Source: Magnolia sinica (taxonomy: Eukaryota; Streptophyta; Magnoliopsida; Magnoliales; Magnoliaceae). From it: 64,000 nt of DNA. The notes under the pieces were generated by a model. It was not told the DNA's origin, made no database searches, and saw only the letters and a program-made list of their open reading frames with translations. Location of the stretch: assembly GCF_029962835.1 (NCBI RefSeq), contig NC_080583.1, positions 434,001 to 498,000 of the forward strand. Direction: 5' to 3'. The translations under genes and the position numbers were made by a program. Below are positions 1 to 45,378 of this stretch, one piece after another (positions within the stretch are counted from its first letter, which is position 1; the number at the start of each line of letters is the position of its first letter).

Positions 1-620
1 AAAGAAGGAAATGGAATCAGAAATTCGAATTCTCGATGCGTTCTTCTAACCGGATCCGGTTGGATTTTTATTAGAAATCAGTTTCATTTGCTACTTCCAT
101 TATCCAAGATTCGAGAATTTCAAAGAGCTCGTCGAGTCAGTCACTGCCTTGTTGACCCGCTTGAGTCGACCCGGCACTCGGAAACTGCGATTGAGCTTTT
201 TCAAAGCCTCTTCGAGAGAGAGAGAGAGAGTCTAGACTCTGGATCGTGCATCCTGTGCAGATCTTAAATCGAATGGTTATGAAACGTTCTGATGGGAGAG
301 AATTGGTGCTATGGAGAATTCAGCTGCGACCACAATTGAGTGGGACCCAATAGATTAACGGCTCAGATCATTCGCCTGCTGAAGACGGCCACGTTTTCTT
401 TTAAATATCATTGTCATAGATCATTCCCTTTAAACAAACCAATTTTTTTTAAAAAAAAACTAAATATGAAATGATTTATTAATTTTTAATTTTTTATTTT
501 ATAATTTCAAATCGATTCGTAACCGGACCGAATCGAGTCGCCGAGTCAGGCGAGTGACTGAGTCGACTCATTGACCGCTAAAAAGACTCTCTTCATTTGC
601 ATTTCAACGCAGACTCGCAG
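1..620. other. Upstream intron or 5' region of the GH17 gene, with a possible inverted-repeat insertion
   Basis: No hydrophobic leader is encoded here in any forward frame. There is a short GA microsatellite near 216-230. GTCGAGTCAGTCACT around 127-141 has an inverted partner around 545-565, which suggests a small degraded inverted-repeat element of about 440 bp inside the first intron. Support is weak. Confidence 0.35.
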
Positions 621-3600
621 TCCTTCATCGGCGTAAACTACGGGCAGGTTGCCAACAACCTACCCCCACCGGAGATGACGGCAAAGCTCCTCCAGTCAAC
701 CTCCATCGGAAAAGTCAGGCTCTACGGCGCCGATCCGGCGATGATCAAGGCCCTCGCAAACACCGGCATCGCGATCGTCATCGGCACATCCAACGGCGAG
801 ATCCCAGCCCTAGCTTCCGATCCAACGGTCGCCAATCAGTGGATCGCATCCAACGTCCTACCCTTCTACCCTTCCAGCAAAATCGCCGTCATCACCGTCG
901 GCAACGAAGTGCTGACGTCAGGCGACCAGGGCCTCATCTCCCAGATCTTCCCAGCCATGCAGAATCTCCAGAACGCCCTCAATGCCGTGTCACTGGGTGG
1001 AAAGATCAAGATCTCCACCGTCCATTCCATGGCCGTCCTCAAGCAGTCCGATCCGCCGTCCACCGGCAGCTTCGATCCCGGTTTTGCAGACGCGATGAAG
1101 CAGATGCTGGGGTTCTTGCATGATACCGGTTCGCCCTTCGCTATAAACCCGTACCCGTATTTCGCGTATCGGAGCGACCCGAGACCCGAAACCTTGGCTT
1201 TCTGCCTTTTCCAACAGAACGCAGGCAGGTTCGACGCTGGGTCCAAGATCACATACATGAACATGTTCGATGCTCAGGTAATTCGAGATAATTAGAATGG
1301 GCTGGGCTTGTAATGGGCTTGGCCCATATGTTAGAAAACATCTAAGACATTGATTAGTGGGCCCCAGCTTTAAGTTTTATGGACCATTCATCTCTACTAG
1401 GACTTATCATCAATGTGGCTTGCTGCAAAATCCTCCTCCATTGGTAGATTTTACCAGATTATTAGTGGGCTTGGAATTCTCAGTTTTGCCGACGGTCCAT
1501 GGATTGTGTCGATGAATTTTTCCAAGAGGGAGGATTTTTGGTAATGATCTCATTCATCATCGATTACATATGGATGAAATAATCCAACAGGGGGGATTTT
1601 TGGTAATTGCCCATTCGTGATTGAGTGCACCAGATGAACAAACGGTGTGGCTTCTTGAAAGATGGCTCGACATTTATGGCTGCCGGCCATGAAACGACAG
1701 TGTTCTAACGGTATGGATTCATGCAAGATGGACCAACCTTCATGTCTTCTGGCCATGAAACAACGATGATTTTCCTTTATGAACTTCATTTTGTTAAAAT
1801 GGCAGCATTCATTCAAGTTGTAGTTTTCATCTAGTGATCCACAGTGCTAATTTTCTGGGCTACAAGATATCCTCTGTTGAGTTGAATTGTTTCGGACTGT
1901 GGTGGGCTGTGTTTTACTTGCAACCATCAATTTAGTGGGCAACAGTTTGGATGGATAGGATTATTGGATGAACAGTGCATCAGCACAGTCAATTCAGCCC
2001 GGGCCCTGAAAAGTCTACTGACAATCTTCCAATGCAGGTCGACGCCATCCGAGCCGCCTTAAACGCAATGGGCTACAAGGACATGGAGATTGTCGTTGCT
2101 GAAACAGGTTGGCCATACCAAGGCGATAGCAATGAGGTTGGAGCTAGCATTGACAATGCAAAAGCATTCAATGGTAATCTAATCCAGCACCTAAGATCGA
2201 TGGTCGGGACACCGTTGATGCCGGGGAAATCAGTCGACACGTACCTTTTCGCGCTGTATGATGAGAACTTGAAGCCCGGGCCTACATCGGAGCGGTCATT
2301 TGGGCTTTTCAAGCCTGATCTCACCATGACATACGATGTCGGCCTTGCCAAGAGCAGTCAGGTGTGAAATGTTTGTGTTTGGAAGTGTACTCCAAAGCCA
2401 TAGTTTGCAAATCAGGTGGGTCAACTCAGGAATTGGCTGAGTCAACCTGGTAAGGTCATGCGCCTGGTCAGCTCAAAATTGTTGGGGAACTGTAGAAGCC
2501 CACAGAGATGACTCAAGCAAAGTACTACCTATTGTACAACCAAGTCCAAACACAAATAATTTGAATTTTACTTGGCAAAACCCTTTCAAGAAAAAACCAC
2601 GACACAAAATGACGAGTAATGCACTATGAAAGCAGAATTTACAAGAGATAGTGTTACTGATTCGAACAAGCCTCAAATCCACTTCACAAATTAGAAATGA
2701 ATTAGAAAGCCTAGAACTCCTGTACTAGTTCCCAAATCCAGGTTACACCCGCTATGCATAACATGACATAGTATCACAATCAGAATAGGAAAAAAATCCC
2801 GCACTTAACCTGGCAAGGTCATGGGCCTGGTCAGTGGGTCCTGGTTTTTCCTGGGTGAGCTCAAAATAAGGCATGCTTGGCCTAGGTTTCAACGAGTCAC
2901 TGGATGGTATTATTCAAGGGGAGAAGAAGATTATACAATAATTGTTTTCCTTTATATTTGTTTATGAGCCGCCTGATTGAGTAGGGACTGGACAGGTTGA
3001 CTCGACCTCAAGAGCCGAGTCCAGGTTTGCAAACTATGTCTAAAGCAACAGTTACTAGAGTTGAAGTTATTAGTGTTTTGGGGCACATAATAAATCAAAA
3101 CCAAGTTGGAGGGGTGGATGATTTTCAGCATTTCTGGCTAGAAATGGCAATCTTATTCATTTTGAAAAGTACTACTTGAAACAAACAATATCTTATTTTT
3201 GGTGGAAAAGCATTTCTAAATTGGAATGTGTTACATCTCAGGCGACGCCGACAAATCCAGCACCTTCACAAACACCAACAAATCCTTCACCTTCAACGAC
3301 ACCAACAAATCCATCGCCATCAGGAAAGCCAGCAGGTTGGTGCATGCCAAAGGCTGGCACTTCCGATGCAGAGCTGCAGGCAAATCTAGACTATGCCTGT
3401 GGCCAAGGCATCGACTGCAGCGCAATCCAACCGGGCGGGGCTTGCTACATGCCGAACACCGTCGCATCCCATGCTGCCTATGCCATGAATCTCCTCTATC
3501 AATCTTCTGGGCGGAACCCTTGGAACTGTGATTTCTCGCAGACAGCTTCACTCACATCCACCAACCCCAGTAAGATAATTCTTTGGGTTTTTTTTTTTCT

Positions 3601-5430
3601 TTGGTTTTTTTCCCCTTAATTAAAATCTAGCAATTGCTAGACCCAGTGGCTTGATTTTTGCAGTACATAATTACAAGGTGTTCCCGGTGGCGCATCTTAC
3701 CATATTAGCCTCTTACCTGTATATGGTCATAATGTGGGGTGCATACAAGGATGAGCCCTCTAAACGGGATTTGGTCCTCTGCACATGGTAGAAAAAACCT
3801 GTTCAAAAGTAGGGAGATATTTTTAGGGCCTGTTTGGTAGCCTCTTAAATACGATTTCATCTCATTTTAGTCAATTGTACATGTATTAAGGTGCGTTTTG
3901 TTGCAGCAAATATCATGATACGAGTAATCAATCTAATTTGGTGCAACCAAACCATTGTTCTAAATATCACCAATATTATTCATAGCTCCAGCTCAGTGAT
4001 ACCAATAACACCAGTAGCAATACCAACAACACTAGTAGTATCAGAAAATCCATGTAAGGGCAATATAGCACTAAGTATCGCCAATGTATCGCCAATTCAA
4101 CTGTATAATTCCAAATGTCTCTTGTATCACCAATGTATCGATGCCACCAATGTATTGCCAATATTTTCAATTGTGTAAATTTTAGATGTGGCATGTATCT
4201 CTAGTGTATGAGCAATATTTCAATAATATTGCCAATGTATTGATATCGCCAAAAATCTGTTTATTAAAAGAAATTTCATTTCAAAGTTTTCAACGAATGC
4301 ATAGTAGTATGATGAAATGCATGTTTGTATGCGCGTGTATGGATCATGGATGAATGGATAGATGGATGTGTGTGTGTGTGTGTGTGTGTGTACATGGATG
4401 TATGGATGGGTGGATGGATTATGCATGTGTGTTTCTATCAATGTATAGATGGTTGGTTGGATGTATTAATGGATCCACTATTTTTCCCATAGTTCCCCAA
4501 TGATTCCCTGAGTCAACAATACATCCTTTTAGGCCCCATTAGAAGAAAACTTATTATTTGATTCCTAAATATGTAAATATGTTTTTCGCTATTATTTGAT
4601 TCCTAAATATACAAATGTCTTTTTCACTATTATTTGATTCCTAAATATGAAAATATGTATATTTTGGCATATCTTTAAGTTCGCTAAAAAATTCCACCGT
4701 TTTCTCCGTGTTTTCCCAATGTTTCCCCACATTAGCGATATTATCAGCGATGATGATATTGTTTACATATCTCCAACCAATGAACTTTAGCTATACCAAT
4801 ACTATGAACACTGAACCAAACACACTCTTAAAGATCTTTTTTTTTTCTCCTTTTTTAGTAGGGATTAAAAATAATCCTAATAACCAACAATTTATATAAT
4901 CTCTAATACATAACTAATATTAACTAAAATGAGATGAACTCACTTTTAATTGGCTATCAAACATGCCCTGACTTTTATAATATCATTTTTTTTTTCCTTC
5001 CAGGAAGTAATATTCTCCTAGTGAGGAGAAAACATCCAGCAACAAATCCCGCTTATAACGTTATTACAGTACAAATACCTGTGCAGCCACCGACAATTAG
5101 ATAGGAAGGGACCGCCATGGACCGCATATGATCCAAAGACATTTGGTTAAGGACCTGCAAAGCAGATGGCAAAACCATTTTACAGTGTCCATTTTTCTTG
5201 CACTTAATCAGATGGCTTTGATCATTGGTCGGGTCATGTGGATGTCCAATCTACAGAGGAACCCTCCCATCCAACAACCACCAGTGATCATAGGTGGGGC
5301 GACAGAAGTATTTGCACCAGATTAAGGTGGTCATAGTGATTCAGTGATCCAGCATTCATATTTTTACTAATGGTTTTTCTCATCTAACCTTTTTACAGGT
5401 TATGGAACATGCACCTACCGTGGAAGTTAG
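621..5430 (+). CDS. Glucan endo-1,3-beta-glucosidase (GH17) with C-terminal X8/CBM43 domain; 5' signal exon missing
   Basis: Seen: four exons join in frame, 621-1277, 2038-2361, 3242-3569 and 5399-5430, giving 446 residues and a TAG stop. Introns are GT-AG. The first visible exon follows a cgcag acceptor and begins SFIGVNYGQV, the usual mature start of GH17 proteins. Residues 1-325 are the glycosidase barrel; the general acid is Glu96 in VGNEVL and the nucleophile Glu241 in VAETGWP. A Pro/Thr/Ser linker of repeated TNP(A/S)PS motifs follows, then an X8 domain from GWCMPKAG to YGTCTYRGS with its conserved cysteines. The last exon supplies only the final eleven or so residues. Known: these enzymes hydrolyse callose in the wall or at plasmodesmata, and X8 binds beta-1,3-glucan. 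No GPI-anchor tail is visible after X8, so it is probably secreted. No signal-peptide exon could be found in 1-620, so it probably lies left of the window. It converges with DDM1 on the other strand. Confidence 0.93.
3826..4968. mobile_element. MITE-type insertion in GH17 intron 3
   Basis: The left end GGGCCTGTTTGGTAGCC and the inverted right end (complement GGGCATGTTTGATAGCC) match over roughly 50 bp, including TCATCTCATTTTAGT on both arms. Flanks are TTA on the left and TGA on the right, close to the 3-bp target duplication of PIF/Harbinger (Tourist) elements. A second terminus-like sequence at about 3890 (GGTGCGTTTTGTTGCAGC) suggests an element nested inside. No transposase is seen. Confidence 0.6.
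4318..4470. repeat. GT microsatellite flanked by GGATG-rich repeats
   Basis: A GT run of about 25 bp (4367-4391) sits inside degenerate ATGGATGG repeats, within the element in the GH17 third intron. Confidence 0.8.
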
Positions 5431-22900: not shown

Positions 22901-25900
22901 TTATGAGCATTTCTTCAAATACGAACAATAGAGGCACCAAGTATTTTCTGGTGCACCATGTTAGATAGATCTTAGGTTCAATATGCAGTATAAAGCCCAT
23001 TTTCCGAAAGTAATATACCTAAAATGCCTTAAAGTATAATCAGTAAAATGTGCTTTTTCCTTTTTTTGATTTACGAAGGTGTAGTTCTGCTTTTTCCTTT
23101 TTTTGATTTACGAAGGTGTAGTTCTTTCCCATATAGAACTTGTAGAGACAAAAAAGTTTACTTCGACAGGTTTAACATCAGAAGCCAGCATCGGTTTTGC
23201 TTTTCAATAATGTGGATGCATCTAGTTGAATGGCAGATTTTCATACTCCTACATTACTTCAACAAAGAATGCAATAATGAAGCAAAGAGTCACAAGGTTT
23301 TAGCAAAGAAAATTTAAACAACATGACCACATCGAGAAAAAGTTATATATATATATATATATTGCAATCTTCAAGAAGAAATTCGATAAGCAGAGTTTAT
23401 TACCAGGATTCAAATTCTTCATGAGACGAGAATATATCGGGCAAGATGAAGTTCAATAGCGACCAAAGTTCAGCCAAATTATTTTGCAGAGGTGTTCCAG
23501 TAAGCAAAAGCTTATTTTCAATGGGCAAGCGCTTCAGTTCTCTCAATAACTTGCAATTTGTATTTTTCAGCCGATGTCCCTATAAGAACAAGGGTTTTGA
23601 TGAGACATGAGAGCAAAAAAAATAAAAAAGAAATGAAACAATTTATTTAGGATTTACATGATTATTACCTCATCAACAACAACATATTTCCAATTGTAAT
23701 GTGCCAAAGCTCTAGCATCATTCATTGCAATCTCATAAGAAGTGACTATAAGGGGGAATTTGGGACCAATCTCTCTAGGCATGTATTTCTGCCTTATCTC
23801 ATTCCTTTCTTTTCTACCTCCATGGTATATAATAACACTCATTGAGGGTACAAACCTGAAAATAAGACTTACCAGAGTCGATAGATGTTGGCATGAGAAA
23901 ATTAACAGGAGATCAAGAAGTGGATAATTTTACCTGTTGACCTCATTCACCCAGTTTGAGAGCGTAGAAAGAGGAGCTATTATTAAATAAGGCCCATCCA
24001 AACCCTTCCCTTTCAAATGCGCAAGAAAACCAATCGTTTGAACTGTCTTGCCAAGTCCCATTTGATCTGCCAGGATTCCATTAAGTCCATTTTGCCAAAG
24101 TGATATCAACCATTTTACCCCTTTGATTTGATAAGACTTCAGTTTTCCACCAGTCAATAGTGGTACAAGCTCAGCCTGCTCTTTAAGAACTCTCTCCTCC
24201 TCAGTGAGGTTTGCATCTTCAGGAGTAGTACCCTCTTGGAATCTTGTAAACATGGCTGCTACTGCCGTTTTAGCTTTTCTCTGAAAAACATCACAATATG
24301 AGCAAGCATTAGAGCAGTAATAAGCAGTCATGAATGTGGGTGTTGAAGAAAAATATCAGCACTAACCTACATATAATAACAAAGAACAAAGGATAATCAA
24401 AAAGCAGGGGACAAAACAAGGCTATCATGTAACTTGGAATTACAACTATGGCTAAGACATGGCAAAGCGATCATGAAAACTTTTAAAAGGTAATCAAAAT
24501 TAATAATTCACAAATCCAAGCTGCCTAATTAGATACCTAACTCCAGTTCGTATGCAAGTAGAATATATTATGCGCATTGGAGGCAGTTAAGACACATACC
24601 ATAACACATTGCTTGAATCCAGATGTAGCTACGCTAGCATGGTTATCACCCACGTAGTACACTGGATGTATTAAGGCATATAGGGGGCATAGGCAACATT
24701 AGAAACTCGTTCTTAGGCACTCAAACAAAGGGCAGCCTATGCAGTAGCTTTCAATAGTCAAACACATTCATATGCAAGTATCTGTACTAGCTTTATAACA
24801 TAACGTAATTCAAAGAATATTATTGGTAAAATAAACATTTGAAAGAAGAAGAAGAAGAAGAAGGGAGAGCTTTGCTTGCAACAATCAGTTACACGTCACC
24901 CAGTGCACATGGAAGAAGAAAATGCATTAAAGAAAATTGAAAGAACCACTTACATTGTTGTATTGAGCTTTCGCCTTCCTCTTTCTACCACGGCCCCTTT
25001 TCTCTTTTACAGCTTCTTCCTTCTGGATTTCCACTCCATTCTGAGAAGTGAATTCACAGAAATATCAGGCAACAATAAAACTCAATCAACAAGCAACAGA
25101 CTTATTCAAACAGAAGGCTATGGGAGGTTACGAATGTGATGTCCTCCATCTTTTCTAGAAGGAACTCTGAGTATAGCTGGGTCTGTGTCAGAAGCTCATC
25201 CAATTTACTGAATTGGGTGTTGTTCATAATGGCGTCAGCTTCACACACTTCCCTTTCAGAGTCCTCCTTCACTCGGGCCACTTGCAGTTTCTCCTCCTCC
25301 TCCGCCATGGCTTTTGATATAAGAGAAGAATCTCCATTTTTTGCATCAGCCAACAGCAGACCATTATCCTCAGAATGTGGTATTCCATTTTCTTCGGCAG
25401 CTCCTTTCGAGATGAGAGAGGATTCCAACTTGCAAATCCCCTGCTTATAAAAGAAAAATACAAATACATAAAAATGTCAGAGAGAGAGAGAGAGAGAGAT
25501 CAATCTTGGAAGGGACCATAGAAAATACAAGGGGATAAACCCTAATAAGAAAACTCAAAAAAGTTTTAAAGGTGAACAAGTACAAGAGAAAATGGAATCC
25601 AGCAGCTCATCAGACAGGCCCTGACTTGTAGATACCCTACCCAATGTATTATTGATCTGCTCATCAGGTGGACCACACATGTAGAAAAGAAATGGAAGAA
25701 TATGTAGAAGTGATTAACAGTCTACATCCCTGATACTCAACTGGCCCACCAGTTAAGGGCTTGCTTGGATGTCTGTAAACTACTTACTTTAAAGGGTTTA
25801 CAGGTAGGTGTTTGGACAGCAAAACTTGACTTTAATGTTTACAAGTTGTAAACACTTTACAAGCAAACACTCCCTTTTTTCTGGGCAAACACCTACGGTT

Positions 25901-32999: not shown

Positions 33000-33969
33000 A
33001 TCTTCTGCTGTCCATGAGCCACGGATCTCACACACATACCTACGTAACAAATTCATAAATACTTTTGCTTCTTTCTTTCTTTCTTTTTTAATTAATTCGG
33101 CAAAAAACAAAAAAAACACAACATTTTAATATCTGCCAATATATTAAAAGTAATGTGATCATCTGTTGAGATCATTCCTCCTAGAGATTTCAAAATCTTA
33201 GTGAAATTTTGCCACGCTGACTGTAAGATAAGTGGGCACATGCACCAATAATCCAAGCCATCCATTGAATCCCACCATGGATGAACAATTCCCCAGGAGA
33301 TCTCCCAGTTTGGAATATCACGGCCGCTAATCTGTGGTTGGACATGCATCGTTGCTGTTTTATCCCCTTAAATCGCCTACCTGAAGGCAGGACTTTGCCA
33401 GAACAGTGGCCTGGACGACAATAGCATGGCCCCACTGATCTACAGGCCACTGAGCGTGGATTAAAAGACTCCACTGTTTGGGTTAGCTATTTTTGTATGT
33501 TGTGGCCCACTTGAGGTGGGGAACATCTTTTAATCCACCAGGACGTGGGCATTTCATTGGGTCGTGTGTCGTATGATATTATAAAACATGAGTTCGTTTG
33601 ACCTTCGTTCGACTCTACATTGCCAGCATGTGTCGCCCCATTGTGGCCCACATGCTGAGATGGCCTTATGATCAGAGTCATCCATGTTATGGATGCTAGG
33701 CTAGATAAGGTACATAAAAGAAAGGATGGTTTTGAACATCAGCATGTGCACACGAATATTGGACGTTGAAAATAAATTTTTAAATGGTTCCTATCCAGCT
33801 ACAAAAATCAAAGGTCAGGATTACCCTTAGGGTGCGATTATTGGAGCATGGAAAATTTTAAGTGTGTACTCTGCTCTAGTGAAACCTATCATTACCCTTT
33901 ATATGTTGGTACACTAGATTCTTCCTCTTTAGAAACCCGGATTCAATGCTTAAGAATGTGATGGGTGAT
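33000..33969. other. Non-coding region with MITE-like remnants
   Basis: Sequences such as CCATCCATTGAATCCCACC (about 33258) and GTGGCCCACTTGAGGTGGGG (about 33500) resemble decayed MITE ends. The minus-strand open frames at 33190-33681 have no recognisable domain. I see no gene. Confidence 0.4.
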
Positions 33970-34586
33970 TAGGGCTGTACACGAACCGACTTAGCTTGGT
34001 TAGCTAGCTGGCCTCAACTCAAAAAAACTTGATTCAGCTTGATTCCAAGCTGAGATCGAGCCGAGTTGAACTGATTACTTGAGCTCGAAAAAATTTCAAA
34101 CCAAGTTCAAGCTTGCTCGAGCTCAACTCAACTTAAATCGAACCCAATTCGAATCAAATTCAGATTGAACCAGTTCAGTGACCCGGTTACTTTGATATTG
34201 ATGTTGCTCACCAAGTGTCTAATGAAATGACTCAACGAAGTGTGGTTGGTGGCAATGAAAATGTATATATAAAACAAATATATATATATATATATATATA
34301 TAAATGTTGTTTAGAAGGTGTTCAATGTAATACCTGTAAAACCATTGCTACTATTTTACATACAGTGAGATTTTGAAGATGTTGTCTATATATTTGTGAA
34401 AATGCTACATAGGTGAACTCAGCTCGATCTTGGCTTGAACTAGCCTGAGCTATTGACCGAACCGAGCCGAGCTAGTCAGTCAGGCTCAAGGACCAAGCCG
34501 AGCCAAGTTCAAGCTAGGGCCAGCATGTGGTCGAGCCGAGTCAAGTTGTGCCTAGCTCGACTCTGTTCAACTCATGTACACCTCTA
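33970..34586. mobile_element. hAT-type MITE with perfect 8-bp target duplication
   Basis: TGGGTGAT flanks both sides exactly (33962-33969 and 34587-34594). Ends are TAGGGCTGTACACGAACCGA and, on the other strand, TAGAGGTGTACATGAGTTG. Both arms are rich in GAGCTCGA/TCGAGCC motifs. It is 617 bp long with an AT microsatellite near 34275-34303 and no transposase. The same family recurs inside the tandem array at 40-44 kb. Confidence 0.87.
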
Positions 34587-34599
34587 TGGGTGATACACG

Positions 34600-35880
34600 A
34601 GCTCGTAGAAAATACCAAAAAATAGCACATGTAGTAGATAATTTGTTCAAATTCTATGAGCCAAAAATCACACTTGATTATGAAGCTATCATATTGGTGG
34701 GTATTTATGGGACAGTAGTTAAAAGATGAAAAATATATTCTGTTCCTGTTACAACTATAAGTGTCCATGACTCGTCAACTAATTTGATTTTGGCCTTTTC
34801 AATGGTTACTCTGCTTCCAATTCAGGAGATTGTTGGGGACACAAGCTAACGAGTCATCTCCCATTAGGCTTATGCCCATCATATAAATGCTACAGATTAC
34901 TAACATATATTAAGTTCTTCATTTTCCATCTATTATATTAGGAAAATAATTCATTTCTTTGCATATATATAAAATTATTATTTAAATTTTATTAGTTCAT
35001 GATTCAATTAAATTAATTAAATCAAATTTCATGTCATTGCAGTATTTTATATTTGGAGTCGTCATATATAAATTTAAAACTTGGCCGTAGATGCTGCAAC
35101 TAAGGCCAACAAGCTAATAAAACCTATCAACCAGTCAAACCCAATCAACTCACCCAGTCAAACCATTCAAATCAACGTAGTCAAACCAGACACCATCAAA
35201 ATAAATCTGAGAGGGCCAAGGGGTTACACCCCATGCCAGCAGTCTCCTTACAAAGGTATAAATCTAAGAGGGCCAAGGGGTTACACCCCATGCCAGCAGT
35301 CTCCTTACAAAGGTAGGCCACATGGCATCGCCCGCTACGTGGCAGCTCTCTTGCCTTAGCAAGAGAGAGTGCAAGGCATGTGTAGTTGCCTAGAATTCAA
35401 TTACAATAATGTAAAAATAGGAAATAATTCTATTATCCTTCCCTCGAGCCAAAATTACAATCTTACCTAATCATTTAACCGTTGAGATCCCACCAAGCTC
35501 AAGTTCAGACCATTAAATCCCTTTTATCCTAGCGTTCCAAGCAGTTACCAAAAACCTGAAGCCTCCTCCCCTTTCCTTACAAAGCTCTTATAAATTGTTT
35601 AGAAATTAAAAAAATAAAAAATAAAAAATTGCACCCTTTGAAAAATCGAACTAACTAGTTAGTGACGACTTCAATCAAATATAATACCCACACATTTTAA
35701 ACATATCACACACGCCCCGTAAAAAATCACACATGAGCATGACTTGCCTCGCGTATCCAGCATCCACATGCACTGATGAAAAATAAGCAATTACCAAATA
35801 TTAGATCAATTTTATAGAGAAATTATATATGTATGTATGTACATGGAGAAGATACTACATATACAAGGTTGAATTCATTA
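34600..35880. other. Non-coding AT-rich region
   Basis: Apart from a 57-bp tandem duplication (listed separately) I see no gene, conserved protein or clear repeat here. Confidence 0.5.
35201..35314 (+). repeat. 57-bp tandem duplication
   Basis: Two units begin ATAAATCTGAGAGGGCCAAG (35201) and ATAAATCTAAGAGGGCCAAG (35258), and differ at that one base in the parts compared. The period is a multiple of three and the surrounding frame stays open (35081-35359), but the product is not recognisable. Confidence 0.9.
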
Positions 35881-36297
35881 GAAGCTCCCCACGAGGTTAA
35901 GCTCAGTGAGCTCCAATATGTGTGAGGGATATCCATCCCATTAATCAGATGCAACATTCCATGGTGAGCCATGGGCTAAAAAAATATGTTAAATCCATGA
36001 CTTAGGTGGGCCACACCACATACAATAGTTGTGACTAGATGCCCACCCATTAAAACCTTGTTTGTTGTACATAGGGCCCACTAAGATGTGGTATTGACAT
36101 CCAACCCATCCATGGCGTGTTTCCCATTTGGATGAGGGGTCACATCAATTTTTAGCTCATTCTAAAAATCAAGTAGACCCCACCATATGCTTTTAGGTGT
36201 TTTAGGCATGATTTATCACGGTTTCAGATGGTATGGCCCACCTAAGTTTTGGATACAACTAATTTTTAACATATCCTTCCACTTAGAGGAGACCTAC

Positions 36298-39200
36298 TGT
36301 AAGACTTTACTCGAGTACTATCCATTTCATCCCTTTAGGTCCTGCAGTCCTATGGGTCGAATCCTGGCGATCCGTCACCTGTGGATAGCGTTTGTGGTCA
36401 TCCTTAAGTTCAGTCACATAAACCAGACCCAGATCGACTCGAAACTTATGCCATTGCGACCGCATCGGCGCCACGGTTCCACACCACATCTCATGCATAA
36501 TTTTGGCGTGTGCATCTTGACTTATCATCCGAGCATTTTCGGCCTTTCATCATGTGGTGGGACGCATTTAGCTGGCCTTACATGTTTTTCTAGAATGAGC
36601 CCCACCTAACTCCTTTTTCTAGAAAGCCTATCATGCCTACCATAGCACCCTACTTACCGTACTTATCATAGCCTAGCTATAGGCCACCTTATCTAGAAAA
36701 TCATCATTGGCCTTGGGTTCAACCCCCCATATGCTATGATGACTTTGCTCTTCCCTAGCCTAGAGAACAATCATTACTTTGATATACCCCTCCCTCTCCT
36801 CTCTCTCTTCTTCTCATCCTTTCATCTCCTTCTTCCATTGCTAGAGATGTCCCACCCTCTCCCCTATTCCAGCAACTCTCCTCCCTATTTCCCCCTCAAT
36901 CTAACATTCTAACCCACATCTCAACCATCTAAACTTCTCCATTGAAGCCTAGGACCTAGCTCTTGGAGTTTTGAAGGCTTCCTTATAGGTGAGTGCTCCA
37001 TGTAGATGTTTCTTCTTTCCTTCTTCTTCCCTTCCTTTTCTTACATGCATGGAAGTATGTAGGACCCACCAATCCATGGAAGAGGTCCTACATGGCTCCT
37101 AGAATGATGGCCATGGGCTTAAATCTTACACATTTCCTTCCATGGTGGGTCATTCTCCATGGACCCACCATGATGCATTTCCTCTTTATTTTGGCATCAT
37201 ATAGGTCATTTAGACTTTACATGCATGGTGGAGACGGTGTCTCTATCCCTAGTAAATTTTCTTGCCTTGTAATAGCTTGCATGTAATAGATAAAGGTAGT
37301 GGATGGTATAGATTGTAGGTGGAAGGTTCATGAGTGCTGGAACCTTCCACCAATGGCCGGGTCTCTCTCCTTCTCTCTCCCTTTCTCTTTATTTTATTCT
37401 ATTTATTTCTGGAGATGTGTGGCCCACTAAGGTGGTAAGTAACATCTCAAATCCATCAGGAAGATGAGACGTCCAGGCCCAACATGATATGCATGGGTTG
37501 GGTGGCCTCCAAACATGATTTTTCATGAAAGTTTTGGTACACTAATGGATCTGAAATTTTGCTAACCTATCTAGGTGGACCCCACTTGATGGATCAATGT
37601 ATAAAACCCTTCGAATAATTTAAATGGACTGAAATATGGATAGCTATGCTATCCAGATTTTAGGCCCATTTGGAACAAGACTTTTGAGCTAATGTTTGGG
37701 ACTGTTTGCATGCCTTTTTCTCCCAAATTTCCTTGGGAGTTTTATAGTGTGTGGGCCCCACTTTGATGAGGAATGAGGCTCACATCATTTCCCCTATGAT
37801 TGAGGCACATGGGATGGGCCAAAGTGGGAGAAATTTTTGGACAGTTCAACAATATTGTATGTTATAAATGAGCACTCTTACCTTAATTTTTGGAGTAAGT
37901 GGGCAACTCCAGTGGACCCCCACTTATTGTCCATATGTGAGACCATCCTTCCCACCTATTTTTCAGGGGTTTGGACAAGCTTAGGCCCACCCCATGTGGT
38001 GCCAAACATAGGCATAACAGTAATTTCTGCACCACCAAATTTTCTAGATGTATTATTGTCCTTTTCAAAAAAATAAAAATACTTAGCATGTATAATAAAT
38101 TCTGAAACTAATTCCTATGGTGGCCCACCCTTGCTGGGACCCACCTATTATGAAATTAGGCCATCTAGGCCATCCGAATTCCAGGTGCAAGTGGCTGGAC
38201 CAGCCACCTTGCTGGACGTCCCAGGTTTTAACGTCCAGCAAGGTTGGCCATCCCACCCTTGTGAGGCCCACCATGGTGTAGTGTTTTCATCCGTGCGTCC
38301 ATCCATTGTGTGGCCCACCCTGGTGTGGAACGTCCAAGATGGGGCCCACTTTAGCCTTTGGAGAGGGTTGGGCATCCAGCCCATTGGACCGCCTAGGCCC
38401 ATTGTGGGACACCCATTGTGGGCTATTGTTGGATTGTTGGTCCAATAGTGTGGCCCACCTATTCCTTGTGTTGTTGAAGTACTCCCTATGTGGTGGGACC
38501 CCCTGATCATGATGCTGGACCTCCTTGGACCCTTATTCCAATCAGAAGATTATCTTACTGGGCTCCAGCAGGCCCAGATAGCTGGTGGACTAAAAATCCA
38601 ACAAGGTTTCTTATAAATGTGGATTGTTTTTTTTTTTTTTAGGCTGGGGTCTTAAGGGTGTGGGGCCCACCATATTGTGAGGATTTCGTAGTGATAATTT
38701 CATGCCCTTACTTCCTTAATTTGGGCTTAATTAATACACTCTTGATGCCCACCATATTTGGGTTATATGGGCATATACGTAACCAGATTTTTAGACTCCT
38801 TATAGGCCCAAATGGGCTGGAACTTTCTAGATAGGCCCAGTATATTCTTGGGCTGAATTCACCATAGTATTGTGTTGGGCTAGTGGGCTAGAATGTGTAG
38901 ATGGTTGGGCCCTTGGTTGCCCACCAAATCAACTATATCCTTAGGCTAGGTTGTATGCCCAATTTGCTTATCTTGAATGAGAATTCTTGCCCATGTGTTG
39001 GAGTAATGGGCTACCCACTAGGCCCACCACAATGTATGGTCTTGGTGGCCCTTATATTTGGGTCCTAACCTTCCCTGTGGGCCCATATTATTACGTGTGG
39101 ATTGGGCCATATATGTTATGTTGCCTTTTGGACCTATGTGTTGAGTAGGCCTTGGACCATTTTAATTGAGGCCAACACGGAAATGTATGTGTGTTATAAC

Positions 39201-41389
39201 TACCCGTTTCTTATTTATGGTAATGTTTGGGGCTTGAGCCTTGATTCCTGATAGATTATTTATGGGCTACCTTCTTGGGACAAATAGTGGTTGAATGTCT
39301 ACGTTTGTGGCCCCAAGATAGGCCCACTTACTTCTATGAGTGGTTAAAGGTCCACCATAGACCCCCATGCTAGGCCCATTTTTATTATTTAGGCCCATGC
39401 CATTGTCTACCTTAGCCATGTGGGCTACCCCAAACTATCGGGACCCCATTAGAGGTTGTGCCCCTTGTAGGATTTGTCTAAGTACCTAGACCTAGAAACT
39501 TCTTGGATAGGAGGAGAGTGCAACAACGTACATCGCCACATGGCATATCTTGCTCATCTTCATGACTTATATGCATCATTGTGTGCTTGGATGACATTGT
39601 GTTGGTTATGGTTGTGCCATTGGGCAGGATATTATGGCTTTCCCGAGGGATGGAGATCCCTTATTGAGCACGTTGGATGCTTGGGGCTGATGTCTGACTG
39701 ATTTGTGTGATTCATGCATCTGACATTGCATTGCAATAGCATATTCGCCCTTGCTTCATCAGGGTTGTAGCCTCCACAGGTTTATCATGGATGACCGTAT
39801 TTGAACACCGGAAATATCACTCGAGCATATAGGGCACTTACGATGTCCTTGGATGAAAGCCTCTAGTCCTTCATGATACCAAGAATACGCCTCAACGCCG
39901 AGACCGAGTGGAAAATATCAGCGCACAAGTGCCTTATACCATTAGGCCGCGTCTCCCACTGTTGTGTGGTCGATTGAGATGATGTGTGACCTTACCCGCC
40001 TGAGTGAGGGGGCAATAGCTAGGCCGAGTTTGATCACCTCGTGAATGAGTTCGCTACCGTCGAGTCTTGTTGGTAATTAGCCGTCCATAGGCGGGTAGTG
40101 AGGTCTCTTATGCTTGTTTGACTGTGCGGGTAGGAGAGCGGCAGTCGGTTGACAGTGTATTAAACCCCTGTGGTTTCCTTATAGTGGAACTGTATGGATA
40201 CGTGGACTTAGGTCACCTGAGTTTTGAATACGGCTGAAACTTAGTGTGAACCCTCATTCAAGTGGGACACACACAATGGTGGGCTTGATGTGTGAACCAC
40301 ATCTCATTATGCCCTTTAAATGATTATGAAGGTTTCAATGGGTGAGTAACCCTCTCAAATGTTGTATGCAATGTAGCTCACTTAAGTCATAAATTTGCCT
40401 GATTTCTATGACTGAAAGTTAGGCCATGAGCATTTCATGGAGTGCTGCATCACATGAATTGTTTAGATTTGATGCCCATGACATGTGTGCAAAGGTGCGC
40501 ATGGGTTCTCACATAAGTAGGAGCGCATGTGAGAATGATTTATAGAGCTGTACATGAACCGAGTTAGCTTTGTTAGCTTGCTCGACTTGACTAAAAAAAG
40601 CTCGGTTTGACTTGGTTTGAAATCGAGTTCGAGGCAAGTTGAGCTGAATTTTTGAGCTCAAAAAGATTTCAAGCCAAGTTCGAGCTCGACTCGCCTCGGA
40701 TCAAACCTCAACTTGAATCGTACTCGGATCGAACCAATACGTGATCGCATTTGCACTTTACACATGGCATTGGCTATGTAGGCCTCTTGTGCATCGCCTT
40801 GGTATGGCGCCCAATACTAATTTGTTGCATCGCATAGCCTTATGATAGCTCACTGCATTCATGCTTGGTATAACATAGCCTTGGTATGGTTGTTGGCATT
40901 AATCGCATTCATGGTTCATGCTGTATTTCTGCATTCTCTGATATTGCTTTCCCGGCACTGGTATTATTACACACTTACACCACCCTCTAAACTTTCTATA
41001 AGCTTATGCACGATTGATGCGTGCAAGAGATTCTAGGCAGCCGCAGTAGCCGATGATGAGCGTTGGAGTGTGCCGAGGACCTTTTGGAGTCGCCGTTGTT
41101 CAGACCCTATATTTCCTTTTTTAGCACCGTGCCTTGTATCAAAGTTTTAATTCTTAGTGAATTTTGTGATGTGTTCCCGTGGTTACTTTCTGTGATTACT
41201 ATGTTATGATCTTGAGTATGTTCTTCATGAATCAGATTATGTTATAAAAATTCTCCTTGTAGGATTCCAGGATCAGAACCTGGTGAATGGGTGCTAGGAG
41301 CTAAGAATAGGATACTACAGATGCTGTCGACACCGGAATCGGCTATCGGGATTCTTGAGAGTTCTGGTCACCGAATCTAAGGCATGACA
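36298..41389. mobile_element. Probable solo LTR of an LTR retrotransposon, with one internal insertion
   Basis: The segment begins TGTAAGACTTTACTCGAG and ends AATCTAAGGCATGACA, giving the canonical TG...CA ends. CCTAC flanks both sides exactly (36293-36297 and 41390-41394). The sequence across the site joins the two halves of a MITE. No gag or pol is seen inside and no second LTR nearby, so a solo LTR is the best reading. It measures 5092 bp, or about 4.55 kb without the insertion at 40205-40736, long but within the range known for some Ty3/gypsy lineages. It looks whole as an LTR. Age is unknown because there is no partner LTR to compare. Confidence 0.75.
38203..38248. repeat. Hairpin-forming inverted repeat inside the LTR
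   Basis: CCTTGCTGGACGT (38207-38219) and ACGTCCAGCAAGG (38231-38243) are perfect inverted arms around an 11-base loop. Pairing extends outward with one gap (GCCA...TGGC). A near-palindrome, GTGGCTGGACCAGCCAC, lies immediately before it. Confidence 0.85.
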
Positions 41390-41467
41390 CCTACTAAATG
41401 CACATAGTGGATTTCCATCACACATCACGGTGGTGCCTACAAAGCTAGGCCTCATGGGAGCTCACCC

Positions 41468-41492
41468 AACACACACACACACACACACACAC
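41468..41492. repeat. (CA)n microsatellite, array copy 1
   Basis: About 25 bp of CA at the junction between the MITE end and the next MITE start. Its length differs from that in copy 2, which explains the period difference. Confidence 0.95.
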
Positions 41493-42944
41493 CTAATTGG
41501 AGCTTCCGATGAGATTGAGATTTGTGGACCCCACTATGATGTGTGTCGAACATCAACATGTGTATTTGGGTTCCCCTCTAAGTTATGGGATATCTCAAAA
41601 AATTAGCCTAATTAAAAACTCAAGTGGACCATACCACCTGAAGCCATGTGAAATCATGCCCAAACACATCTAAAAAGTATTTACTTAGGTCACCTGAGTT
41701 TTGAATACGGCTGAAACTTAGTGTGAACCCTCATTCAAGTGGGACACACACAATGGTGGGCTTGATGTGTGAACCACATCTCATTATGCCCTTTAAATGA
41801 TTATGAAGGTTTCAATGGGTGAGTAACCCTCTCAAATGTTGTATGCAATGTAGCTCACTTAAGTCATAAATTTGCCTGATTTCTATGACTGAAAGTTAGG
41901 CCATGAGCATTTCATGGAGTGCTGCATCACATGAATTGTTTAGATTTGATGCCCATGACATGTGTGCAAAGGTGCGCATGGGTTCTCACATAAGTAGGAG
42001 CGCATGTGAGAATGATTTATAGAGCTGTACATGAACCGAGTTAGCTTTGTTAGCTTGCTCGACTTGACTAAAAAAAGCTCGGTTTGACTTGGTTTGAAAC
42101 CGAGTTCGAGGCAAGTTGAGCTGAATTTTTGAGCTCAAAAAGATTTCAAGCCAAGTTCGAGCTCGACTCGCCTCGGATCAAACCTCAACTTGAATCGTAC
42201 TCGGATCGAACCAATACGTGATCGCATTTGCACTTTACACATGGCATTGGCTATGTAGGCCTCTTGTGCATCGCCTTGGTATGGCGCCCAATACTAATTT
42301 GTTGCATCGCATAGCCTTATGATAGCTCACTGCATTCATGCTTGGTATAACATAGCCTTGGTATGATTGTTGGCATTAATCGCATTCATGGTTCATGCTG
42401 TATTTCTGCATTCTCTGATATTGCTTTCCCGGCACTGGTATTATTACACACTTACACCACCCTCTAAACTTTCTATAAGCTTATGCACGATTGATGCGTG
42501 CAAGAGATTCTAGGCAGCCGCAGTAGTCGATGATGAGCGTTGGAGCGTGCCGAGGACCTTTTGGAGCCGCCGTTGTTCAGACCCTATATTTCCTTTTTTA
42601 GCACCGTGCCTTGTATCAAAGTTTTAATTCTTAGTGGATTTTGTGATGTGTTCCCGTCGTTACTTTCTGTGGTTACTATGTTATGATCTTGAGTATGTTT
42701 TTCATGAATCGGATTATGTTATAAAAATTCTCCTTGTAGGATCCCAGGATCGGAACCTGGTGAATGGGTGCTAGGAGCCAAGAATAGAATACTACAGATG
42801 CTGTCGGCACCGGAATCGGCTATCGGGATTCTTGAGAGTTCCGGTCACCGAATCTAAGGCATGACACCTGCTAAATGCATAGAGTGGATTTCCATCACAC
42901 ATCACGGTGGTGCCTACAAAGCTAGGCCTCATGGGAACTCACCC

Positions 42945-42971
42945 AACACACACACACACACACACACACAC
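42945..42971. repeat. (CA)n microsatellite, array copy 2
   Basis: About 27 bp of CA at the equivalent position in the second array unit. Confidence 0.95.
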
Positions 42972-43498
42972 CTAATTGGTGCTTCCCATGAGATTGAGAT
43001 TTGTGGGCCCCACTATGATGTGTATCGAACATCAACATTTGTATTTGGGTTCCCCTCTAAGTTATGGGATATCTCAAAAAATTAGCCTAATTAAAAACTC
43101 AAGTGGACCATACCACCTGAAGCCGTGTGAAATCATGCCCAAACACATCTAAAAAGTATTTACTTAGGTCACCTGAGTTTTGAATATGGCTGAAACTTAG
43201 TGTGAACCCTCATTCAAGTGGGACACACACAATGGTGGGCTTGATGTGTGAACCACATCTCATTATGCCCTTTAAATGATTATGAAGGTTTCAATGGGTG
43301 AGTAACCCTCTCAATTGTTGTATGCAATGTAGCTCACTTAAGTCATAAATTCGCTTGATTTCTATGACTGAAAGTTAGGCCATGAGCGTTTCATGGAGTG
43401 CTGCATCACATGAATTGTTTAGATTTGATGCCCATGACATGTGTGCAAAGGTGCGCATGGGTTCTCACACAAGTAGGAGCGCATGTGAGAATGATTTA

Positions 43499-44070
43499 TA
43501 GAGCTGTACACGAACCGAGTTAGCTTGGTTAGCTTGCTCGACTCGACTAAAAAAAGCTCGATTTGACTTGGTTTGAAACCGAGTTCGAGGCAAGTTGAGC
43601 TGAATTTTTGAGCTCAAAAAAATTTCGAGCCAAGTTCGAGCTCGACTCGCCTCAGATCAAACTTCAACTTGAATCATACTCGGATCGAACCAATTCGGTA
43701 ACTCAATTATTTTGATATTGATGTTGCTCACCTAGTGTTTGATGCAATGACTCAACGAAGTGTAAGCTAGTGGCAAGGAAGGTATGGATATAAAATAAAT
43801 ACTTTGCATCTTGATTTTTATATTGCTTGTCAAGTGTTTAGTAAAATACCAGTAAATTGCTGCTGCTGTTTTACCTACAATGAGAAATCGAAGGGGCACT
43901 TCACGTGTTCAAGAAAATGCTACGGATACTCCATCTTGATTTAAATTGGCCTGAGCTGCTGATTGGCTTGAGCTGGCCAATCAGGCTCGAGGACTGAGCG
44001 GAGCCAAGTTTAAGCTGGGTCAGCTAGTGGCCGAGCCAAGTCAAGCTGTGCAAAGCCCGATTGATGCACT
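43499..44070. mobile_element. hAT-type MITE copy, right end lost
   Basis: It starts TAGAGCTGTACACGAACCGA and follows the copy at 33970-34586 along its length (GATATTGATGTTGCTCACC, ATGACTCAACGAAGTGT, GAGCCAAGTCAAGCTGTG). The terminal tacacctcta at the right end is missing. Copies starting at 40543 and 42020 are cut shorter, at GAACCAAT. Confidence 0.75.
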
Positions 44071-44099
44071 GTATATAAATTCACATGCTAAAATAGTAA

Positions 44100-44531
44100 A
44101 ACCAGTTCTGATTAGAACTTGTGAGCACCTTTTGATCTGTGATATAAGCACAACATCTGAACGGTCCACATGATGTGTCACTTCATCAAATACCTAGGTC
44201 CCAACTTTCAGCCTGATCCAAAACTCTGATGGGCCACGGCTAAAGAAAACAATTATGTACCTTGATTTGCTTCTCTTTTTTTATAGCCTACTAGAGCTTT
44301 GGATAAGGCTGAAAGTTGGGCCTTGAGGGTTTCATGGGGTGCCGCATTGCATGAATCGTTCGAATTTAGTGCCCATGACGTGTGTGCAAAGGTGCGCATG
44401 GAAGGTGCACCGGTGAGAATGATTCGCATATGCCCGCGTATCAAGCGTCCCCCGCAGACGGAGTAACAAGCAACTGTACATGAGATAACCATCTTCGTCT
44501 CTCACAAAGCCGTATTTCTCCCGCCGAAAGA
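44100..44531. other. mTERF upstream region with a MITE-derived segment
   Basis: 44285-44435 resembles part P of the tandem array (GCCCATGACGTGTGTGCAAA, GGTGCGCATGG, GTGAGAATGATT) but lacks the hAT-type MITE there. It is therefore the uninterrupted form. It sits within 100-250 bp of the mTERF start and may be part of its promoter. Confidence 0.6.
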
Positions 44532-45338
44532 ATGCTACTCCAATCTCTCTCATCTCTCCAAATACCAACCGTCTACTCCTATTTTCCTTCCCAAAACAAC
44601 CCTCCCCATCTCCTCCGCTTCCGACCTTCCTACACTCAAAACCTCAACTACCTCAAGAACCTCGGCATCATTTCCAATAACAAAAAACCACTCCACCACT
44701 CCACCACTCCACCCCCTCCCGCATCCTCTCCATCGTAAATTTCCTCAAATCCAAGGGCTTTTCCGACCCTCAACTCCAACGTCTCTCCTTCCTCTGCCCT
44801 CAGATCTTCTCTTCCGACATCTCCGACTCTGCCGACGTCTTCTCATTCTTATCAGATGACCTCTCTGCATCCCCATCCCAATCCAACGGCCTGATCTCCC
44901 GCTGCCCCCAACTCCTCATTTCCCACGTCGATTACCGCCTACGGCCCACCCTCATCTTCCTCCAAGAACTAGGCCTCCAGAAACTCAACTCTCCCACCTC
45001 TCTAAACGCCCATCTCCTGAATTCCCGCGTCGTGGATCTTCTTGAGAAGATCGCGTTTTTAGAGAGCTTGGGGCTTTCGCAGGAGGAAGCCCCGAGGATT
45101 TGCGCACGTCTTCCGGCGGTTTTCGGGTATAGTGTGGAGAACAATCTGAGGCCAAAGTTTGAGTATTTGGTGAAAGAGATGGGGAGGAGTGTCGAGGAAT
45201 TGAAGAGTTTCCCTCAGTATTTTGCTTTTAGCTTGGAGCGGCGGATTGTGCCGAGGCATCTGCATTTGAATGAGAGAGGTTCGGGTCCCTCTACAGAGGA
45301 TGCTGTTGTGGAGCGATCAGAGGTTTTATGCAAAATAG
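44532..45338 (+). pseudogene. mTERF family protein, SOLDAT10-like, with two frame changes
   Basis: Seen: intronless. It starts MLLQSLSSLQIPTVYSYF, a Ser-rich leader that would suit an organelle transit peptide. mTERF helices follow: ILSIVNFLKSKGFSDPQLQ, FLCPQIFSSDI, LISRCPQLLISHVDYRLRP, LQELGLQKLNSP, ICARLPAVFGYSVENNLRP and LKSFPQYFAFSLERRIVPRH. The end reads VRVPLQRMLLWSDQRFYAK then TAG. The frame changes twice: in the CCCCCTCCC run near 44710-44720 and in the GAGAGAGG run near 45275. In the intact family these parts form one protein of about 285 aa. Known: plant mTERFs act in chloroplast or mitochondrial gene expression, and SOLDAT10 affects plastid rRNA levels and singlet-oxygen signalling. 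Both changes lie at simple repeats. The gene may therefore be a recent pseudogene or an intact gene with two assembly indels; I cannot tell which. Confidence 0.85.
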
Positions 45339-45340
45339 AA

Positions 45341-45342
<2 letters not shown>

Positions 45343-45378
<36 letters not shown>
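45343..45378. repeat. (TA)n microsatellite
   Basis: About 36 bp of TA directly after the mTERF end. It could form a hairpin in the transcript's 3' region. Confidence 0.95.

Follow-up and report, generated by a model that had tools for sequence, protein, structure and literature searches.

A tandem array starting inside a long terminal repeat of Magnolia sinica as a candidate scar of DNA repair

How did one 533-bp segment come to lie three times in the same orientation, once inside a long terminal repeat (LTR), with a second segment repeated between its copies? The question is raised by a 64,000-nucleotide stretch of the Magnolia sinica genome (positions 434001-498000 of contig NC_080583.1, our C11, in an assembly of 1.84 Gb and 127 contigs), which we refer to as the window. 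Self-comparison of the window revealed a tandem array of the form P-Q-P-Q-P at 40206-43694, with a period of 1477/1479 bp. We infer that the array records DNA repair within nested transposable elements, an interpretation that extends to the order of events and the repair pathway. The history that we favor, with moderate confidence, is that a copy of P was used as filler in a broken LTR, that an old unequal exchange duplicated Q, and that a tract of about 0.84 kb was converted later. The same genome yielded relatives of the LTR as well as of the two repeats that form the edges of P, and all dispersed matches listed from the searches with P, the LTR and the inverted-repeat element lie on contigs C1-C19.

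The tandem array is genuine. A single self-match spans 2013/2015 bp at 97.8% identity, which excludes chance, and the window contains no N bases. The initial annotation had described a directly repeated unit of about 1.48 kb, and the spacing of the three P copies (1477 and 1479 bp) agrees with that description. The two Q copies (40739-41682 and 42216-43161) each consist of the 3' part of the LTR, termed S' (651 bp), and a segment M (293 or 295 bp). The junction between P and S' falls at the identical letter in both units, a pattern that fits a single origin followed by copying through exchange. The components are as follows, where TSD denotes a target-site duplication and MITE a miniature inverted-repeat transposable element.

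35991-36297 (-): left arm of the inverted-repeat element hit by the LTR insertion
36293-36297 (no strand assigned): left 5-bp TSD, CCTAC, of the apparent solo LTR; the flanks in two host-element relatives (L043 and L045) meet with a single copy
36298-40205 (+): S, 5' part of the LTR, beginning with TG; the next letters, ACT (40206-40208), are common to S and P
40206-40738 (+): P1, 533-bp copy within the LTR; 1 difference from P2 and 16 from P3
40206-41049 (+): putatively homogenized tract of unit 1; 2/844 differences from unit 2, against 24/633 beyond it
40739-41389 (+): S'1, 3' part of the LTR, beginning ACGTGATCGC and ending TGACA; 1 difference from S'2 in the first 311 bp and 14 in the last 340 bp
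41390-41682 (+): M1, right flank of the LTR, comprising the TSD CCTAC (41390-41394), the remainder of one host-element arm and the start of the opposite arm; 10/293 differences from M2
41683-42215 (+): P2, middle P; 15/533 differences from P3
42216-42866 (+): S'2, second 3' part of the LTR, immediately 3' of P2
42867-43161 (+): M2, second M, with TSD letters CCTGC (one change) and an AC run longer by 2 bp
43162-43694 (+): P3, source copy, comprising the end of the inverted-repeat element (43162-43364), other sequence (43365-43497) and the start of a hAT-like MITE (43498-43694)
43695-44075 (+): R, remainder of the hAT-like MITE, following the P3 part directly as in other family members; right end degraded

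The initial annotation placed the first P inside an LTR, and an LTR that runs from TG at 36298 to CA at 41389 does enclose P1. The 5-bp sequence CCTAC stands on each side of it (36293-36297 and 41390-41394). We compared this LTR with 29 fetched relatives (L010-L038), and similarity stops at 41387-41391 in 26 of the 28 that could be aligned at the 3' end. The family is dispersed: 39 other places match 39600-40205 at 81-85% identity, with 40 of 9308 candidates scored. The surrounding inverted-repeat element was also recovered elsewhere, and sequences resembling the left flank and M1 lie at most 60 bp apart in 18 of the 27 copies fetched; among the remaining nine, two have their flanks far apart and seven have no usable pair. 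The flanks overlap by six ACCTAC-like letters (the TSD plus one A) in L043 and L045, so that the empty site can be read. With the flanks side by side and the empty site readable, the host of P1 is, to judge by its sequence, a solo LTR inserted in an older inverted-repeat element, with M as the native right flank. It shares the TG...CA ends, the 5-bp duplication and an empty site read from host-element copies with known solo LTRs, and differs from them in being interrupted by P1 and partly duplicated. Two of the 28 LTR relatives (L011 and L018) carry TTGGTATC 4 bp past the LTR end, which we take to be the start of a methionine-tRNA primer site, and these two may be 5' LTRs of longer elements.

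The composition of P indicates which copy is the original. The first 203 bases of P are part of the inverted-repeat element, for which 47 matches were listed (three of them local), and all 27 fetched dispersed copies continue across the edge between M and P. The last 197 bases form the beginning of a hAT-like MITE, and the edge between P and R is crossed by all six copies compared, namely five of the 27 listed and one within the window at 33970-34586 (+). This last copy, of the same family as P3-R, has an 8-bp TSD, TGGGTGAT, on both sides (33962-34594 including the TSDs) and short terminal inverted repeats, TAGGGCTGTACA and TAGAGGTGTACA, a combination characteristic of hAT elements. Both edges of P3 are thus contiguous in dispersed copies of the two component repeats, which makes P3 the source and agrees with the initial annotation, where the third P was said to continue into other downstream sequence. 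Among the 41 matches listed, only the three local ones span the whole of P; 40 of 7831 candidates were scored in this search, and further full-length copies are possible. Each of the other 38 matches covers one part of P (the MITE part in 27, the inverted-repeat part in 10 and a middle piece in one). A fourth, partial and diverged copy of the middle part lies at 44304-44424 (+), with 84-85% identity over 93 bp, beside an imperfect hairpin at 44200-44320.

The flanks of P1 had been interpreted as a short target duplication. The sequence ATACGTG is indeed present on both sides (40198-40204 and 40737-40743), but while the left letters are native to the LTR, the right copy is a composite, with AT from P and ACGTG from the LTR. 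Position 40739 is T in P3 and in each of the six hAT-like copies, whereas P1 and P2 carry there the A that opens ACGTG. We examined the corresponding joint in the LTR relatives, counting it as intact when it matched a 24-base motif derived from those relatives themselves. It is uninterrupted (at most four substitutions and no gap) in 26 of 29, and at this point the other three (L012, L020 and L031) show deletions or different sequence. Measured against the relatives, 14 LTR bases are absent at the P1 site between the end of S and the start of S'. On the left, S extends to GGACT, whose ACT is shared with the start of P (3 bp). The right junction is blunt, and S' starts with ACGTG. The counterpart of these five letters in the 26 intact joints is GCATG in 16, ACATG in five, GCGTG in one and another sequence in four, and it is always followed by LTR sequence. 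Because the right 7-mer is part P and part LTR, and about 14 LTR bases are gone where the relatives show missing rather than duplicated letters, we rejected a target duplication. The ATACGTG pair reads as a composite look-alike at an insertion site marked by loss.

The initial annotation explained the array in two steps, a copying of P followed by unequal exchange between the P copies, and suggested full alignments of P1/P2/P3 and Q1/Q2. These alignments uncovered two classes of divergence. Units 1 and 2 differ at 2/844 positions up to 41049 and at 24/633 from 41050 on, a change point whose strength was reached in 0/2000 permutations; they also differ by a 2-bp indel. Within S', there is 1/311 difference to the left of the change point and 14/340 to the right. 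P1 and P2 differ at 1/533 positions, P2 and P3 at 15/533, and P1 and P3 at 16/533. If exchange had been the last event, P1/P2 should under a clock be at least as diverged as Q1/Q2. Instead the difference between P1/P2 (1/533) and Q1/Q2 (25/944; Fisher p 2.5e-4) runs in the opposite direction, so two steps are insufficient, although unequal exchange remains a plausible route to the duplication of Q. To account for the pattern, one must add a later homogenization, change the order of events or invoke exchange between unlike haplotypes.

Local conservation was rejected as the cause of the low divergence in the left part of S'. Mismatch within the LTR family is lower there (0.15-0.16 vs 0.22, and lower in 27 of 27 relatives, two of the 29 having been omitted for short alignments), a real but mild effect that is too small for the contrast of 1/311 with 14/340. 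P itself diverged normally between P2 and P3, which served as a control. When polarized with the same 27 LTR relatives, the 14 differences in S' to the right of 41050 are derived in unit 1 at eight positions and in unit 2 at five, with one ambiguous, and therefore both copies have aged; the lone difference on the left, at 40889, is derived in unit 2. Within the hAT half of P, states common to P1 and P2 are derived at 40571 and 40605 (five of six outgroups each) and at 40665 (six of six), derived states private to P1 and to P3 are seen at 40623 and 40707, respectively (six of six each), and the other five differences within P are mixed in the six outgroups. The left half of P, polarized with 27 copies, is mostly ambiguous, and only 40359 leans toward a change common to P1 and P2.

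In the history that we favor, a break in the solo LTR would first have been repaired with filler copied from about 0.9 kb downstream. The end in GGACT would have paired with ACT at the source (3 bp) and been extended through the 533 bp of P. The released strand would then have been joined without microhomology to the end starting ACGTG, at the cost of up to 14 bp of the LTR, giving S-P-S'-M-P-R. Homologous unequal exchange between P1 and P3 would next have duplicated Q. Much later, gene conversion between the two units (or two exchanges with the same outcome) would have made P1 and the initial 311 bp of S'1 match P2 and S'2. P1 has the features of filler DNA, being a copy of nearby DNA with both a deletion and microhomology at the target, and from these we infer that it was made by break repair through synthesis-dependent strand annealing (SDSA). 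A portion of PMC4617055 describes fillers made by SDSA in plants, together with template switches and with repair that uses homology at one end and end joining at the other.

Several observations weigh against this history. One of the 29 LTR relatives (L012) is missing roughly the same stretch of LTR although it has no insert, and the 14-bp loss may therefore be older than P1. An exact ACGTG occurs in none of the 26 intact joints, and calling these letters native depends on one- or two-letter differences. Divergence between P2 and P3 (2.8%) is not above that in the unconverted part of Q1/Q2 (3.8%; p 0.42), though the filler step must predate the exchange. A filler of 533 bp is also long: in the rice excision repairs covered by one portion of PMC4423477, fillers measure 1-123 bp with an average of 13 bp, and flanks lose about 18 bp on average. 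Finally, the history needs three events, whereas an alternative with two exists.

That alternative, which we consider unlikely but the strongest competitor, reverses the order. S'-M-P would first have been duplicated in tandem with a blunt junction, and much later unit 1 would have broken at its LTR joint. The right end would have invaded S'2, been extended leftwards over about 311 bp of it and the whole of P2, and joined S at ACT, so that P1 and the homogenized tract are products of one event and P1 is the youngest part of the array. Two events would then explain why the recent tract comprises P1 and the adjoining S' and ends inside S', and the portion of PMC4617055 cited above describes repair in plants in which one end invades and the opposite end is joined. 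However, this order requires a break no more than about 14 bp from an older duplication boundary, a coincidence that the filler history avoids. The LTR joint of the relatives decided our preference for filler first, because it shows that the break would have to adjoin this boundary. Were P1 the youngest part, the locus would be an example from nature of a break within a tandem array repaired from one side, where copying by the invading end ran beyond the homologous sequence and brought in 533 bp plus an adjoining conversion tract of about 0.31 kb. A two-unit array could in this way gain a partial edge unit without crossing-over.

A recent unequal exchange between unlike haplotypes, both of the form S-P-S'-M-P-R, seems improbable. 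The 3.8% divergence of Q1/Q2 would then be allelic rather than a measure of duplication age, and again two events would suffice. Such haplotypes exist, given the mean heterozygosity of 1.29% for Magnolia sinica in the portion of PMC10999834 consulted, but the crossover would have to lie near the left end of P, between haplotypes nearly identical over 844 bp and then 3.8% different. Still less credible is an assembly error in which two haplotypes or mis-overlapped reads were joined in tandem. The units are short relative to long reads, yet their differences are structured (2/844, then 24/633, plus the 2-bp indel), and a false join leaves P1 and its LTR loss unexplained. We attach marginally less weight again to an array that was once longer and made of complete units, the first of which lost its S' and M by deletion: by reasoning, unequal exchange at about 41050 plus a deletion yields the same final sequence, but this costs one extra event and a deletion end that falls by chance near the older boundary. 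The idea that P is a transposon inserted with a 7-bp target duplication can practically be set aside, and we rejected P as a mobile element, for in spite of ATACGTG on each side of P1 its edges lie inside other repeats (27/27 fetched copies on the left, 6/6 compared on the right), none of the 41 matches listed is a dispersed full-length copy, and the LTR relatives show letters missing, not duplicated.

Filler first remains the preferred history, and both of its ingredients have known counterparts. Like the templated insertions found at plant double-strand breaks (SDSA with end joining), P1 has a local template that was kept, a small loss at the target, and 3 bp of microhomology on one side with none on the other; it differs from those of the rice data set in its length. 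Identical internal junctions and a mosaic of old and recent divergence are shared with arrays that grow by unequal homologous exchange and gene conversion, whereas here there are just two full units and a third P, and simple exchange misfits the divergence.

Elsewhere in the window, Pfam comparison of 10 of its 33 open reading frames gave matches above cut-offs to glycosyl hydrolase 17, X8 and mTERF, weak matches below cut-offs to RyR, gag_pre-integrs and Pex14_N, and none for five of the 10 scanned. An mTERF-like gene lies at 44532-45376 (+), about 0.84 kb downstream of the array (mTERF E 1.3e-33 for 44681-45376). Its ATG at 44532 and the mTERF-matching part are in different frames, with the 8-bp repeat ACCACTCC present 3.4 times between them at 44687-44713, and the break may reflect a frameshift, a pseudogene or an intron. 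Open frames at 582-3616 (+) match glycosyl hydrolase 17 (582-1292) and X8 (3122-3616) and are perhaps exons of one gene. Two further tandem duplications were seen, one of 57 bp at 35201-35315 (+; two copies, 98%) and an exact one of 37 bp at 23051-23125 (+). Scans of the window with Rfam (gathering threshold) and for tRNAs found nothing.

None of the features that we looked at points to a function of the array, and we propose none. General searches of the literature on repair and genomes returned no report of this locus, which is no proof of absence. The locus looks ordinary in kind, a longer example of plant filler repair followed by the usual recombination between repeats and not a new type of element, and it leaves existing knowledge of repair unchanged. 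What it may offer is a readable case in which a templated filler seeded a tandem array in a repeat-rich plant genome, with the later conversion separable by divergence. It also illustrates that short flanking repeats can mimic a target duplication, since the composite 7-mer was exposed only by relatives of the target.

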